Part shown: piece after piece, positions 10,454 through 31,132 of the stretch | How positions within the stretch are numbered: position 1 is the first letter of the stretch | Layout of the letters: each line of letters starts with the position of its first letter | From: a bacterium | Lineage (GTDB): Bacteria > Pseudomonadota > Gammaproteobacteria > Burkholderiales > Burkholderiaceae_C | DNA: 36,497 nt | Reading direction: 5' to 3' | Assembly: GCA_030824555.1 (NCBI GenBank) | Contig: JAVBXK010000082.1 | Coordinates: 1-36,497 of the forward strand | Program-made: the position numbers and the translations under genes | The notes under the pieces: model-generated | Seen by the model: the letters and a program-made list of their open reading frames with translations, nothing else | The model's database searches: none | What the model was told of the DNA's origin: nothing

Positions 10454-11164
10454 ATGTCCTACACACTGCTGATCGGCAACAAAAACTACTCGTCCTGGTC
10501 CATGCGCCCATGGGTGCTCATGACCCAGGCTGGCATCCCGTTCATGGAACAGATGGTGCGGTTCGACTCGTTCGGGCCCGGCTCCACCTTCAAACAAGCC
10601 CTGGCAGGCGTCAGCCCCACGGGCAAGGTGCCTGCGCTGCTTGACGACAGCCAGCGCACAGCCAACGGTCAGCCCCTGGCGGTATGGGACACCCTGTCAA
10701 TAGCCGAATACCTGGCCGAACGCCACCCTGACAAAGCCCTTTGGCCCACCGCCATGGCGGCCCGGGCGCTGGCGCGCAGCGCCTGCGCCGAAATGCACAG
10801 CGGGTTTGGTGCGTTGCGCAGCCATTTCCCCATGAACATCGAAGCCTCGCTGCCCGATGTGGGCCGTTTGGTGCTGCGCGACCAAGCCGCCGTACGCGCC
10901 GACCTGCAACGCCTGTTTACCCTGTGGCAAGGCCTGCTGGCAGCCAGCGCAGGTCCGTTGCTGTTCGGCACGTTCACCGTGGCCGATGCCTACTTTGCCC
11001 CGATGGTGATGCGCCTGAAAACCTACGGCGTGCCCCTGCCCGTCGACGTACAGGCCTACACCGATGCGGTGTGTGCCCTGCCCGGAGTACAAGCCTGGAT
11101 GGCCGACGCACGCCAGGAAGCCGACTTCCTGGATTTCGAAGAACCCTACCGCCTGGCCCGCTGA
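10454..11164 (+). CDS. Glutathione S-transferase family protein
   Basis: Cytosolic GST-fold protein of 236 residues. The thioredoxin-like N-terminal domain begins SYTLLIGNKNYSSWSMRPW, with Ser residues in the position of the glutathione-activating residue, and continues to VSPTGKVPALLDD (cis-Pro loop) and WDTLSIAEYLAERHP (gamma-glutamyl contact region). The C-terminal helical domain contains LLFGTFTVADAYFAPMVMRL, the conserved N-capping segment with Asp. The substrate cannot be read from sequence. It lies 21 bp after the CsoR-like repressor gene and overlaps the cca start (TGATG at 11162-11166), so these three genes look like one operon. A thiol enzyme here fits a thiol-stress theme, which is inference. 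Confidence 0.85.
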   Translation: MSYTLLIGNKNYSSWSMRPWVLMTQAGIPFMEQMVRFDSFGPGSTFKQALAGVSPTGKVPALLDDSQRTANGQPLAVWDTLSIAEYLAERHPDKALWPTAMAARALARSACAEMHSGFGALRSHFPMNIEASLPDVGRLVLRDQAAVRADLQRLFTLWQGLLAASAGPLLFGTFTVADAYFAPMVMRLKTYGVPLPVDVQAYTDAVCALPGVQAWMADARQEADFLDFEEPYRLAR

Positions 11165-12504
11165 TGGACGTGTACATGGTGGGTGGCGCGGTGCGCGATG
11201 CCTTGCTGGGACTGCCCGTGACCGAGCGCGACTGGGTGGTGGTGGGCAGCACCCCCGAGGCCATGCTGGCCCAGGGCTACCAGCCTGTGGGCAAAGACTT
11301 CCCGGTGTTTTTGCACCCGCGCACCCACGAAGAGTACGCACTGGCCCGCACCGAACGCAAAACCGCGCCGGGCTACCACGGCTTCGCCTTCCATGCCGCG
11401 CCCGACGTGACGCTGGAGCAAGACCTGGCACGGCGCGATCTGACCATCAATTCAATAGCTACCAAACCAATATCAACAAGCGGTGAGGCCGATTTTTACT
11501 TAAAAAAATCAGTCACGCCCGATCTGACACAACTCATTGACCCGCACGGTGGCGTGGCCGACCTGCGTGCAGGCGTGTTGCGGCACGTGGGCGACGCGTT
11601 CCGCGAAGACCCTGTGCGCATCCTGCGGCTGGCCCGCTTTGCCGCGCGCTTCCCCACGTTCACCGTTGCGCCACAGACCCTGGCGCTGATGCGCGACATG
11701 GTGCAGTCGGGCGAAGTGGCCCACCTGGTGGCCGAACGCGTGTGGCAGGAGCTGTCGCGCGGGCTGATGGCCGACAAACCCAGCCGCATGTTCGAAGTGC
11801 TGCGCGACTGCGGGGCCCTGGCCGTGCTGCTGCCCGAGCTCAACCGCCTGTGGGGCGTGCCCCAGCGGGCCGACTACCACCCCGAGGTGGACACTGGCGT
11901 GCACGTCATGATGGTGCTGGACCACAGCGCCCAACGCCAGGCCAGCCTGCCCGTGCGCTTTGCCTGCCTGTGCCACGACCTGGGCAAGGGCACCACGCCG
12001 CCAGACGTGCTGCCCCGCCACATTGGCCACGAAGAGCGCAGCCTGCGCCTGCTGCAAGGCGTGTGCGAGCGCTGGCGCGTGCCCAAAGAGTGCCGCGAAC
12101 TGGCTGAAGTGGTGGCACGCGAGCACAGCAACATCCACCGTTGCGGCGATTTCTCGGCCGCAGCCCTGTTGCGGTTGCTGACGCGGTGCGATGCCATCCG
12201 CCGCCCCGCCCGGTTTGACGACGTGCTGCACGCCTGCCTGTGCGATGCGCGCGGCCGCCTGGGGTTCGAGACCACCCCTTACCCGCAGGCCGATCGGTTG
12301 ACCCTTGCGCTGACAGCAGCCTGCACAGTGGCCACCGAGGACATCGCGGCACGCGCGCTGCGTGACCTGCCTGCCACGCCCGACCAGGCACCGGGCGCGC
12401 GTGGCGAAGCCGTTGCCCAGGCCATGCAAACCGCCAGGCAGCACGCCATTGAAGCTGCCTTGCGCGTGGGTGCTGGCCACACAGGCACGGCCAGCAACAC
12501 CTGA
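11164..12504 (+). CDS. cca: Multifunctional CCA tRNA nucleotidyltransferase with HD domain
   Basis: Adds and repairs the 3'-CCA end of tRNAs; proteobacterial enzymes also carry phosphohydrolase activity in an HD domain. It has 446 residues. The start at 11164 overlaps the gst stop and leads straight into the nucleotidyltransferase motif MVGGAVRDALLG with the metal site ERDWVVVG. Motif ARRDLTINSIA follows, then LIDPHGG, FREDPVRILRLARFAARF and the HD site CHDLGKG with GHEERS. Between NSIA and LIDPHGG is an AT-rich stretch of about 20 extra residues (98-120) that the family normally lacks; it coincides with the repeat at 11455. The active-site motifs are intact, so the insert probably forms a tolerated surface loop. 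Confidence 0.93.
   Translation: MDVYMVGGAVRDALLGLPVTERDWVVVGSTPEAMLAQGYQPVGKDFPVFLHPRTHEEYALARTERKTAPGYHGFAFHAAPDVTLEQDLARRDLTINSIATKPISTSGEADFYLKKSVTPDLTQLIDPHGGVADLRAGVLRHVGDAFREDPVRILRLARFAARFPTFTVAPQTLALMRDMVQSGEVAHLVAERVWQELSRGLMADKPSRMFEVLRDCGALAVLLPELNRLWGVPQRADYHPEVDTGVHVMMVLDHSAQRQASLPVRFACLCHDLGKGTTPPDVLPRHIGHEERSLRLLQGVCERWRVPKECRELAEVVAREHSNIHRCGDFSAAALLRLLTRCDAIRRPARFDDVLHACLCDARGRLGFETTPYPQADRLTLALTAACTVATEDIAARALRDLPATPDQAPGARGEAVAQAMQTARQHAIEAALRVGAGHTGTASNT
11455..11510 (+). repeat. In-frame AT-rich element, copy A (in cca)
   Basis: ATAGCT at 11455, AAGCG at 11478 (offset 23), then GTGAGGCCGATTTTTAC and an A-rich tail. It is strikingly AT-rich inside a GC-rich gene. Translated in the cca frame it reads IATKPISTSGEADF (residues 98-111). 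Copies B (21471) and C (30545) share the orientation, offset and reading phase. Confidence 0.8.
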
Positions 12505-21287: not shown

Positions 21288-22202
21288 ATGCACCCCACCC
21301 CTCACACCGCGTCCGATCGCTCGTCAGGCACCTCAGGGGCGCCGCGCCGCACCGTGCTGGTCACGGGCGCCGCGCGCCGCCTGGGCCGCGAGATTGCGCT
21401 GACGCTCGCACGCCAGGGCTGGAACGTGGCCATTCACTACCGCCATTCGGCGGCAGATGCAGCACAAACCATAGCTGACTGTACCCACCAATCAAGCGGC
21501 GAAGGCCAATTTTGTTCATTTTTTGCCGACTTGTCAGACGAGACCGCCGTGCGCCAGTTGTGGGCAGACGTGGTGGCGCGCTTCGGCACGGTGAATGCTG
21601 TGGTCAACAGCGCCAGCACCTTCCAGCACGACGACGCGGCCAGCTTCGGTTACGCGGCCTTGCACACGCACATGGCGGCCAACACCGCTGCGGCTGTGGT
21701 GCTGGCCCAGTGCCTGCATGCGCACCGGCTGGGGCAAGCCACGAGGCAACCACCAGCCGACCCGGCGGCGGCCCCATCAGCTTCATTTGCTTCATCCGCT
21801 GCCGCACAGGCCGCAGGCAGCCAGCCCCCCGAGCCTGCGGTGGTGGTCAACCTGCTGGACCAAAAGCTGTGGAACCCCAACCCGGATTTTTTCAGCTACA
21901 CGCTGTCCAAAGCCGCGTTGGAGGCGGCCACCACCTTGCTGGCACAGGCGTTTGCACCCCACGTGCGCGTGGTAGGTGTGGCCCCCGGTCTCACGCTGAC
22001 CAGCCATTTGCTGACCGACGAGCAGTTTCAGGCGCTGCACAGGCTGTCGCCACTGGGCCGCAGCTCCACCCCGGAAGACGTCGCCGCTACCGTGGCCTTT
22101 GCGCTGACCAACCGCTCCATCACCGGCACCACCTTGCTGGTGGACGGTGGCCAACACCTGATGAAATTCGAGCGAGATTTCTCGCTCATGCCCAAGGTCT
22201 GA
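21288..22202 (+). CDS. SDR oxidoreductase, probable pteridine reductase (FolM/PTR1-like)
   Basis: Short-chain dehydrogenase of 304 residues. The NADPH motif is TVLVTGAARRLGRE (Gly-rich loop 26-33, with the extra Arg typical of NADPH-preferring pteridine reductases). Next come FADLSDE and VVNSASTFQHD (the N-S-A-S-x-F motif), and catalytic Tyr204/Lys208 in FFSYTLSKAAL. The segment VVNLLDQKLWNPNPDFFSYTLSK resembles pteridine reductases. It ends 4 bp before folB, supporting a role in dihydromonapterin or folate reduction. Two unusual parts: residues 62-75 coincide with repeat copy B (21471), and an Ala/Pro/Ser-rich insert lies at about 145-180. The ATG at 21288 has no clear ribosome-binding site; longer upstream frames are intergenic. 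Confidence 0.82.
   Translation: MHPTPHTASDRSSGTSGAPRRTVLVTGAARRLGREIALTLARQGWNVAIHYRHSAADAAQTIADCTHQSSGEGQFCSFFADLSDETAVRQLWADVVARFGTVNAVVNSASTFQHDDAASFGYAALHTHMAANTAAAVVLAQCLHAHRLGQATRQPPADPAAAPSASFASSAAAQAAGSQPPEPAVVVNLLDQKLWNPNPDFFSYTLSKAALEAATTLLAQAFAPHVRVVGVAPGLTLTSHLLTDEQFQALHRLSPLGRSSTPEDVAATVAFALTNRSITGTTLLVDGGQHLMKFERDFSLMPKV
21471..21524 (+). repeat. In-frame AT-rich element, copy B (in SDR gene)
   Basis: ATAGCT at 21471, AAGCG at 21494 (offset 23), then GCGAAGGCCAATTTTGTTC and a T-rich tail. In the SDR frame it reads IADCTHQSSGEGQF (residues 62-75), in the loop between the second helix and third strand of the Rossmann fold. Same orientation and phase as copies A and C. Confidence 0.75.
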
Positions 22203-26761: not shown

Positions 26762-27406
26762 ATGCCCACACACCGTACGTTGCCCCACGCCACCCGCCTC
26801 ACCCGTTGGCTGGCGTGGCTGGCTGCATTTGCGTTGACAGGCTGCGGCACCGTGATGCGGGTGGACAGCGAGGTGCAATCTCATGCCAAATGGCCTGCCA
26901 CCGCTTTACCCACGGGACAAGTAAGCTATGAATTCGAGAGACTGCCATTGCAAACCACTGGCCAGGCAGGTACCGACCAAAACACGCTGGAAGCGCTGAC
27001 GCGCGATGCCCTGGCCGGGTTGGGCTGGCAAGCCACCACAGCTGGCCCGGCACCGTGGCGCGTGGCCGTCAGCGCCCAATCGGTCACCTTGCCCCGCGCA
27101 CCGTGGGACGACCCGCGTGATGGCTGGTTGATGCGGCCCAGGCTGGGCATGGCGATGGGCACAAGCCGTGGCGGGCCATACATGGGTGGCCTGTTGAGCG
27201 TGGACATGCCTTACTACCAGCGCAGCGTGTCGCTGGTGGTGCGCGATGGGCAAACTGGCCGCGTGGCTTTCGAAACCCGTGCGGCACACGATGGCCGCTG
27301 GCACGACAGCCCCGCCGTGTGGCGCGCCATGATCGATGCTGCATTGCAGGGTTTCCCTGCACCGCCAGCCGGCACACGCACGGTCAACATCGACATCCCG
27401 CGCTGA
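26762..27406 (+). CDS. DUF4136-like lipoprotein
   Basis: Predicted outer membrane lipoprotein of 214 residues. The signal LTRWLAWLAAFALTGCG has the lipobox Cys near residue 29. The start of the mature region, VDSEVQSHAKWPATALPTGQ then YEFERLPLQ, followed by ALTRDALAGLGWQ, resembles DUF4136 proteins, which have no known function. The middle is rich in Pro, Met and Arg (DGWLMRPRLGMAMGT). The C-terminal part SVSLVVRDGQTGRVAFETRA looks like paired beta strands. It lies 99 bp after ttcA on the same strand, and its stop is 9 bp from that of the convergent PAS kinase-like gene. Family assignment is moderate. Confidence 0.72.
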   Translation: MPTHRTLPHATRLTRWLAWLAAFALTGCGTVMRVDSEVQSHAKWPATALPTGQVSYEFERLPLQTTGQAGTDQNTLEALTRDALAGLGWQATTAGPAPWRVAVSAQSVTLPRAPWDDPRDGWLMRPRLGMAMGTSRGGPYMGGLLSVDMPYYQRSVSLVVRDGQTGRVAFETRAAHDGRWHDSPAVWRAMIDAALQGFPAPPAGTRTVNIDIPR

Positions 27407-30229: not shown

Positions 30230-31132
30230 ATGCCCCCCGTCTTGGAAACCCCGCTGACCCACGGCGAGCGCTGGTTTGCCGCTGCGCAGTGGGTGCTGAT
30301 GCTGGGCGCGGCAGCGGGATTGCTGTGGTTGGCACGCGGTTGGAGCCACCTCGAACAACTGACTGCCGCGGTCGCCCTGGCTGTGGCGTGCTGGGCACAG
30401 CGTGCCCACTGGCAGCGGCGGCTGAACGCCTGGGCCTGCCTGATGGTGCAGGCGGCCGTGCTCAGCACCGTGAGCGCAGCCTGGGGCTGGGCTGCCGTGC
30501 ACCAGGTCGCCAAACCTGTTGTGATGGTATTTGCACTGCTTTACATAGCTAAAAAGGCTTACATAAAAAGCGCTGAATGCACTTTTCATTCACAAAATAG
30601 GTGGTTGCTGGCTGCGGTGGTCTGGTCGCTGGTGGGGGATGTGCTGCTGATGCTGTCCCCCAGCCTGTTCGTGGGCGGCCTGGCGGCGTTTTTACTGGCG
30701 CACCTGTGTTACCTGGCGCTGTTCAGCCACGACGCACCGTGGTTTGCCCACCGCGTGGCAGGGGCGGGCACGCTGGCCGTGGGGGGTTTGATGTATGCCG
30801 TGCTGCTGACCGGTTTGCCCGCCGCCCTGCGCCTGCCCGTTGCGGCCTACGTGGTGGCCATTGCCGCCATGGCCGCACAGGCCATGGGCCGAGCGGCCAC
30901 CCTGGGCACGGTCAGTGCACGGCGTGTGGCGCTGGGGGCTGTCGCATTCATGTGCAGCGACGCATTGCTGGGCATCAACCGCTTCGTGCAACCGCTGCCG
31001 TTGTCAGCGGTCTGGGTGCTGGGCACCTATTACGTGGCGCAGGCACTGATCGTGTTCCATGTGCTGCCATCATCGGCACAGTCACCACAGCCGTCGCCAG
31101 GTCCACCCGGCCCGGCCGACACGCCTGCCTGA
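30230..31132 (+). CDS. YhhN/TMEM86-family membrane protein (lysoplasmalogenase-like)
   Basis: Polytopic membrane protein of 300 residues with about eight helices. Family motifs: AKPVVMVFALL, VWSLVGDVLLML, FLLAHLCYLALF, MCSDALLGINRF and LGTYYVAQALIVFH. The Asp residues in GDVLLM and CSDALL belong to the predicted active centre. The human relative hydrolyses lysoplasmalogen; bacterial substrates are uncertain. The N-terminus has an extra pair of helices (residues 15-55). Residues 106-119, in the loop after the PVVMVFALL helix, coincide with repeat copy C, and the loop is longer and more basic than usual. The stop lies in one arm of an inverted repeat shared with the convergent chemoreceptor gene. 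Confidence 0.85.
   Translation: MPPVLETPLTHGERWFAAAQWVLMLGAAAGLLWLARGWSHLEQLTAAVALAVACWAQRAHWQRRLNAWACLMVQAAVLSTVSAAWGWAAVHQVAKPVVMVFALLYIAKKAYIKSAECTFHSQNRWLLAAVVWSLVGDVLLMLSPSLFVGGLAAFLLAHLCYLALFSHDAPWFAHRVAGAGTLAVGGLMYAVLLTGLPAALRLPVAAYVVAIAAMAAQAMGRAATLGTVSARRVALGAVAFMCSDALLGINRFVQPLPLSAVWVLGTYYVAQALIVFHVLPSSAQSPQPSPGPPGPADTPA
30545..30600 (+). repeat. In-frame AT-rich element, copy C (in yhhN)
   Basis: ATAGCT at 30545, AAGCG at 30568 (offset 23), then CTGAATGCACTTTTCATTC and an A-rich tail. In the yhhN frame it reads IAKKAYIKSAECTF (residues 106-119), in a loop between membrane helices. The region is sharply AT-rich against its gene. Same orientation and phase as copies A and B. Confidence 0.78.

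Follow-up and report, generated by a model that had tools for sequence, protein, structure and literature searches.

A repeated two-block DNA motif in spacers and genes of Comamonadaceae as a candidate uptake signal

The stretch of DNA analysed here (the window, 36,497 nucleotides) carries four copies of a repeated motif. On its forward strand ATAGCT occurs at 11455, 21471 and 30545, and at all three sites AAGCG follows at an offset of exactly 23 bases, as the original prediction had observed. The first copy (11449-11505, +; ATAGCT 11455-11460, AAGCG 11478-11482, a T-tract at 11493-11497 and an A-tract thereafter; nhmmer E 5.4e-10) covers residues 98-113 of a 446-aa CCA-adding/polyA-polymerase-head enzyme (11164-12504, +), identified by Pfam PF01743, PF12627 and PF01966, orthologue alignments and a model. 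The second (21467-21524, +; ATAGCT 21471-21476, AAGCG 21494-21498; E 7e-9) covers residues 62-77 of a 304-aa short-chain dehydrogenase (SDR; 21288-22202, +; Pfam PF13561 and PF00106, orthologue alignments, model), and the third (30541-30595, +; ATAGCT 30545-30550, AAGCG 30568-30572; E 2.4e-8) residues 106-121 of a 300-aa YhhN family protein (30230-31132, +; Pfam PF07947, orthologue alignments). All three copies are in phase 0, with ATA GCT read in frame, and the Pfam assignments show that the host proteins are unrelated; both points had been made beforehand. A fourth exact copy of ATAGCT-N17-AAGCG, missed until now, lies at 26902-26929 on the reverse strand (profile match 26878-26935, E 2.8e-4), antisense within a weakly coding ORF of 214 aa (26762-27406, +) with a low hexamer gene-caller score and a sub-threshold Pfam match to DUF4136. 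These four exact matches compare with an average of just 3.83 in shuffled windows in which two mismatches were allowed.

Each copy had also been placed in a loop of its host protein. In the AlphaFold2 model of the CCA enzyme, residues 98-113 form a strand (99-104) and part of a loop (105-116, with pLDDT below 50 at 107-110), whilst in the SDR model residues 62-77 run from the end of a helix (55-68) through a turn into the first part of a strand (75-79). The predicted structures bear out the placement only partly, and since both copies span strand or helix too, a claim that the motif is always in a loop is too strong.

The motif is repeated throughout the genome from which the window derives. 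The exact pattern ATAGCT-N17-AAGCG occurs 207 times in its 5.16 Mb (118 and 89 by strand), and the reversed pattern not once. A profile scan, as had been proposed, recovered 93 copies at E 0.01 from 827 kb, the best matches on reversed sequence having E values of 1.9 and 8.7. Extended to 1.22 Mb, the scan gave 137 copies, with a single match on reversed sequence at E 2.7. At the resulting density of 112 per Mb, we estimate 580 copies for the whole genome. Together with the family-wide counts given below, these numbers bear out the suggestion that the motif recurs genome-wide, in spacers and in relatives.

Aligned copies define a motif of about 60 bp consisting of a W-tract, ATAGC, a CA/CTT element, AAGCG, an R-rich GGC, a T- or A-tract and a further W-tract, with W-rich tracts towards both ends and several of the blocks about 10 bases, or roughly one helical turn, apart. 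AGC and AAGCG, the latter at offset 23 from ATAGCT, are near-invariant in the logo, followed by GGC and the A/T tracts; the tract after GGC is T in 108 of the 137 copies and A in 22. The exact pattern served as the seed of the first profile, whose ATAGCT and AAGCG columns therefore reflect ascertainment in part; a logo seeded instead on AAGCG-N5-GGC-N2-TTT recovered AGC in 16/16 copies of this genome. Copies have a median pairwise identity of 50% and the best pair reaches only 76%, such that there are no close duplicates. Perfect and one-mismatch copies are about equally frequent, with no excess of the former (42:48; reversed control 0:5), and in G015, another genome of the family, the ratio is 51:29 (reversed control 0:2). 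In neither genome are the copies spaced more regularly than random (coefficient of variation 0.79 against 0.95 for random placement, not significant, and 1.17 against 0.97 in G015).

The copies have a G+C content of 36% (50% in G015). A dispersed repeat of Bordetella and Comamonadaceae, the BRE, is mostly intergenic with some copies in coding sequences (PMC3110155), and in Bordetella it is 75-91 bp long, has 69% G+C, is often tandem and numbers at most 29 per genome (PMC3110155). We set this identity aside on the G+C content and the far greater number of the copies found here, the BRE having been compared by its description only.

Copies prefer non-coding DNA: 105 of the 137 in the 1.22-Mb sample lie in spacers or across a gene edge and 32 within called genes, when about 89% of the first sample was called coding (genes being called with a purpose-written hexamer script). 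Gaps between divergent genes are avoided (6 copies, 28.9 expected) and convergent gaps are slightly enriched (20 copies, 14.4 expected), and in tandem gaps copies face either way (29 with and 27 against the genes). The distribution over divergent and convergent gaps is what would be expected of intrinsic transcription terminators or a structured RNA, as is the form of the copies in G015, which are near-palindromic and consist of a stem-loop followed by T (hairpin z -2.81). However, copies in the genome of the window are weakly structured (mean z -1.06, with 33% below -1.5), the T-tract is exchanged for an A-tract in the 22 copies noted above, nearly a quarter of the copies are in genes, either orientation occurs in tandem gaps and an Rfam scan of the window returned no family at gathering threshold. 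We therefore regard terminators or RNA hairpins as very improbable and set them aside as the main reading, as we do membership of an Rfam family.

Within genes, one reading phase is preferred. Nineteen in-gene copies lie on the coding strand, of which 15 use the ATA-GCT phase, 4 the phase that would read TAG as a stop codon and none the third. Two of the four TAG-phase copies were examined as DNA, and in both the TAG is altered. Antisense copies likewise show one phase in 10 of 13 cases. The phase shared by the three in-gene copies noted beforehand is thus a preference in this genome and does not extend to G015, where 15 coding-strand matches split 3, 3 and 9 over the phases; this spread arises in part because near-palindromic copies match on both strands, which doubles the in-gene hits of G015 (171 hits, 110 merged sites). 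The phase rule is specific to the lineage of the window's genome. Hosts of in-gene copies include the repair and housekeeping genes for MutS (L211:15800-18580), IleS (L057:8944-11889) and LeuS (L061:461-3325); in other systems, uptake sequences are said to show a preference for genes of genome maintenance (PMC2346458).

Rickettsia palindromic elements are inserts, short repeats that occur in frame in unrelated genes and in spacers. The motif resembles them in its placement in frame in unrelated genes and in spacers, and the original prediction had taken it for a mobile mini-element of this kind. From the 32 in-gene copies, 11, spread over ten proteins, were each aligned once to a PDB homologue. 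Eight alignments lack a gap of element size where the motif lies: those of IleS (the homologue is 9 aa longer), the first copy in an AMP-ligase, aminopeptidase N, aconitase, LeuS (about 6 aa), an acyl-CoA dehydrogenase (2 aa), a GST-like protein (4 aa) and ProA (0). The other three copies lie in insertion-like segments, namely the second copy in the AMP-ligase (16 aa), SrkA/YihE (about 36 aa) and MutS (9 aa). The same kind of gap test led to the judgement that Haemophilus USS are not insertions (PMC1626085). The SDR copy of the window aligns gaplessly to 4/4 of the orthologues shown from its own genus; against those of other genera of the family there is mostly a gap of 3 or 4 aa, the exceptions being L160, which is 8 aa longer, and L162, with gaps of 7 and 8 aa in opposite directions. 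Results from G015 are mixed: one copy in gene L202 aligns gap-free to most relatives, and a second copy in L202 and those in L206 and L198 fall in segments absent from some relatives. No homologue of the motif-bearing proteins of the window's genome was found in a 400-kb sample of G015.

The motif site of the CCA enzyme follows the conserved RRDLTIN(A/S)(I/M)A, so the I-A of the predicted protein pattern falls on a dipeptide of the host. Motif-like DNA occupies this site in many Rhodoferax, Polaromonas, Acidovorax and Comamonas loci and is absent from it in the 6 Hydrogenophaga, the 6 Ramlibacter and the Paraburkholderia loci. The loop varies between clades from 8 to 30 residues, for which reason the CCA site alone cannot settle the matter of insertion. 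There is constraint here at the level of DNA. Among CCA sites recognised as motif without the use of ATAGCT, the isoleucine codon is the rare ATA at 21/21, as against 31/249 of the other isoleucine codons of the same genes, and the score of the CCA site correlates with the genome-wide count of AAGCG-type copies (Spearman 0.76, 49 genomes); for both results the p-values are too small because the genomes are related. The original prediction had named shared residues in orthologues of distant genera as a sign of ordinary protein sequence, and the motif residues are indeed present in CCA orthologues from other genera; the genome scan, for which it had also envisaged a chance-level outcome, is far above chance.

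Overall, the balance of these alignments favours change in place within tolerant segments, with indel-prone segments well represented. A mobile element is not supported as the main reading, because 8 of 11 copies have no element-sized gap, the SDR copy is gapless within its genus, there are no close duplicates and, as described below, the spelling shifts between relatives. The feature is better described as a family-wide DNA signal evolving in spacers and coding sequence.

Motif spelling differs between genomes of the family (all counts are of exact patterns only). At least 10 AAGCG-type copies are present in 24 of 150 family genomes, that of the window included, with a maximum of 471. This maximum belongs to G015, whereas G146 has 18, though the two are of one genus. 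A collinear 20-kb block of G015 and G146 suggested that G146 uses a different spelling. The pattern derived from the block, TAGCT-N4-GCGCA-N2-T-N4-GTA, has 238 matches in G146, a single match in each of two other genomes and none in the remaining 147. Over 400 kb of G146 a profile of this GTA type gave 121 copies, with no match on the reversed sequence. A third spelling, AAGGG, was noticed in four Rhodoferax-type CCA copies, from which a genome search followed: AAGGG outnumbers AAGCG in three Rhodoferax, by 209 to 1 in U11-2br, 243 to 3 in BLA1 and 147 to 7 in MAG_BA11, and by 57 to 4 in G189, as against 0 to 207 in the genome of the window. Eleven genomes were in both searches and had a CCA copy in which AAGCG or AAGGG stands exactly, 23 bases on, and in 10 of them the CCA spelling is that of the genome majority. 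The one that disagrees, G151 (L073), has AAGCG at CCA and 28 AAGCG against 88 AAGGG genome-wide.

We compared gene gaps along two collinear 200-kb stretches of G015 and G146, which hold 61 and 44 motif sites respectively (none on reversed sequence) and in which 61 gene-gap intervals could be matched. Both genomes have the motif in 11 of these, only G015 in 8, only G146 in 6 and neither in 36, which is more sharing than expected by chance (Fisher p 0.0013; 6.0 shared gaps expected by permutation within length strata, p 0.0016). Eight of the 11 shared gaps are best fitted by the AAGCG type in G015 and by the GTA type in G146. Strand agrees in 8/11 (p 0.11), or in 12/15 when the 20-kb block is added (p 0.018); in that block 4 of 14 intervals are shared, 4/4 on the same strand (one weak, 17 bits), with one unshared interval in each genome. 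One further stretch, G146:C1, had no overlap with the first G015 stretch. Most simply, each shared position would go back to a single ancestral site whose spelling was changed in either lineage, some sites having also been gained or lost.

These data also bear on an older history, in which a palindromic mobile or converting mini-element of REP or Rickettsia type has since degenerated and gene conversion keeps the core alike. The near-palindromic copies of G015, the three in-gene copies in insertion-like segments and the G015 copies in segments that relatives lack are all compatible with such an origin. It is harder to reconcile with the 8 of 11 copies that are in place, the lack of close duplicates and two congeneric genomes that each have their own spelling, partly in the same gaps; unlike Rickettsia palindromic elements, the motif shows genome-wide dialects. 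We consider this origin rather unlikely, and the gap tests, the absence of close duplicates and the replacement of dialects led us to set mini-element insertion aside as the main reading. REP sequences, which are associated with RAYT transposases, are short, partly palindromic and preferentially extragenic, and the motif is like them in all three respects. A REP/RAYT identity was nevertheless rejected, given that the hairpin is weak in the genome of the window, the palindrome depends on lineage and a Y1 transposase/RAYT, found in 112/150 genomes, is missing from 2 of the 24 copy-rich ones (G095 and G141). The chromosome of G015 has 20 Y1-transposase matches, several of them identical or split in two frames, a recent IS200-like burst that is apparently unrelated to the motif.

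Alternatively, the motif may be the binding site of a chromosomal protein, such as a nucleoid, replication, segregation or repair factor, that has co-evolved with its sites. The strong core, the A/T tracts and the many copies on both strands would fit such a protein, with which retention in genes and dialects are also compatible. Respelling within a genus at hundreds of sites, however, seems easier where a loss of specificity is tolerated, and the strand counts show no clear bias (p 0.05). We judge a chromosomal binder to be unlikely, though it is the most credible of the alternatives.

By analogy with known systems, we propose that the motif is a candidate uptake signal comparable to the USS of Pasteurellaceae and the DUS of Neisseriaceae, a reading to which we assign a probability of roughly 0.6. 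High abundance, a rigid core, A/T tracts at intervals, a preference for spacers, a mostly in-place origin and dialects of clades together fit the trace expected of uptake-biased transformation (PMC1626085, PMC3630211), and an unusually strong consensus is a puzzling trait of both USS and DUS (PMC1626085). The likeness to Pasteurellaceae USS (PMC1626085) lies in the hundreds of copies, the strong consensus, the A/T-rich segments that flank the core at a spacing of roughly one helical turn and the clade-specific types; in-gene USS arose in place in many cases, as most of the aligned in-gene copies of the motif may have done. Moreover, the core of the Apl-type USS, ACAAGCGGT (PMC1626085), resembles the (A/C)AAGCG(G/C)T of the motif. 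Unlike USS, the motif is longer (about 60 bp) and has a second conserved block, ATAGC, two turns upstream. With about 112 copies per Mb it is less dense than USS and DUS, for which roughly one per kb is given (PMC1626085), and it departs from the USS and DUS described in that source in that its spacing is no more regular than random. As with Neisseriaceae DUS, related genomes have different, internally uniform spellings around a common core (PMC3630211), although DUS are 10-12 bp long, are without flanking A/T segments and have a known receptor, ComP (PMC3630211).

If the motif is an uptake signal, a competence-pilus receptor would prefer DNA that bears it, and transformation with such DNA would both spread the motif and mend it at homologous places. 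Each genome would consequently converge on the dialect of its own receptor, and copies would persist wherever spacers or tolerant protein segments permit. The favoured phase would then reflect which residues are tolerated in proteins (I-A-x6-S-[GA]-x-x-x-F), together with the TAG in one other phase.

Natural transformation has been reported in the family. Verminephrobacter eiseniae is reported to be naturally transformable and to have type IV pili, with competition data that were read by the authors as selective uptake, and natural transformation has been reported for Acidovorax temperans and A. facilis (PMC4212676). DNA from a different Acidovorax species failed to transform any of the Acidovorax that were tested (PMC4212676). 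The available text of that paper names no uptake motif. Among the open-licence papers listed none was found to name one in Comamonadaceae, the subscription literature being outside this scope and absence thus unproven. The genome of the window encodes ComEC, as do 144 of the 150 family genomes; it is found in 24/24 genomes with at least 10 copies and in 120/126 others, i.e. in motif-rich and motif-poor genomes alike, and so does not discriminate between them. Minor pilins of the GspH/FimT type, present in 15 of 16 genomes tried, are likewise non-discriminating, and from the G146 locus no GspH/FimT-type pilin ORF was recovered for comparison with G015.

Uptake sequences have been described for two families only, according to the portions available of two sources (PMC1626085, PMC12616744). 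We would give slightly better than even odds that Comamonadaceae and close relatives possess a third natural sequence-specific uptake system, in which the signal is long (about 60 bp) and built of two blocks, A/T tracts are helically spaced, three or more dialects exist that can switch within a genus and protein segments, for example the CCA-enzyme loop, have been rewritten in place across genera. If so, a large environmental group, some members of which can be cultured and transformed, would have an independent system in which to study the evolution of uptake specificity, the switching of dialects and their role in isolating species, and the identity of the pilus protein that recognises the DNA. 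The hundreds of repeats and the odd protein segments of these genomes would be explained as well, and the transformation of Comamonadaceae could become easier.

Lastly, two further genomes are of note for their spelling. Comamonas denitrificans (G197, L147) has 33 AAGCG-type and 34 AAGGG-type copies, possibly a mixed or changing dialect. The Ramlibacter isolate ACE_PRO44 (G175, L097) has no motif at CCA and no AAGCG-type copies, and carries 24 copies of ATAGCT-N17-AAGGG; among those listed, copies are often centred on AAAGTGRCCG, perhaps a further dialect.
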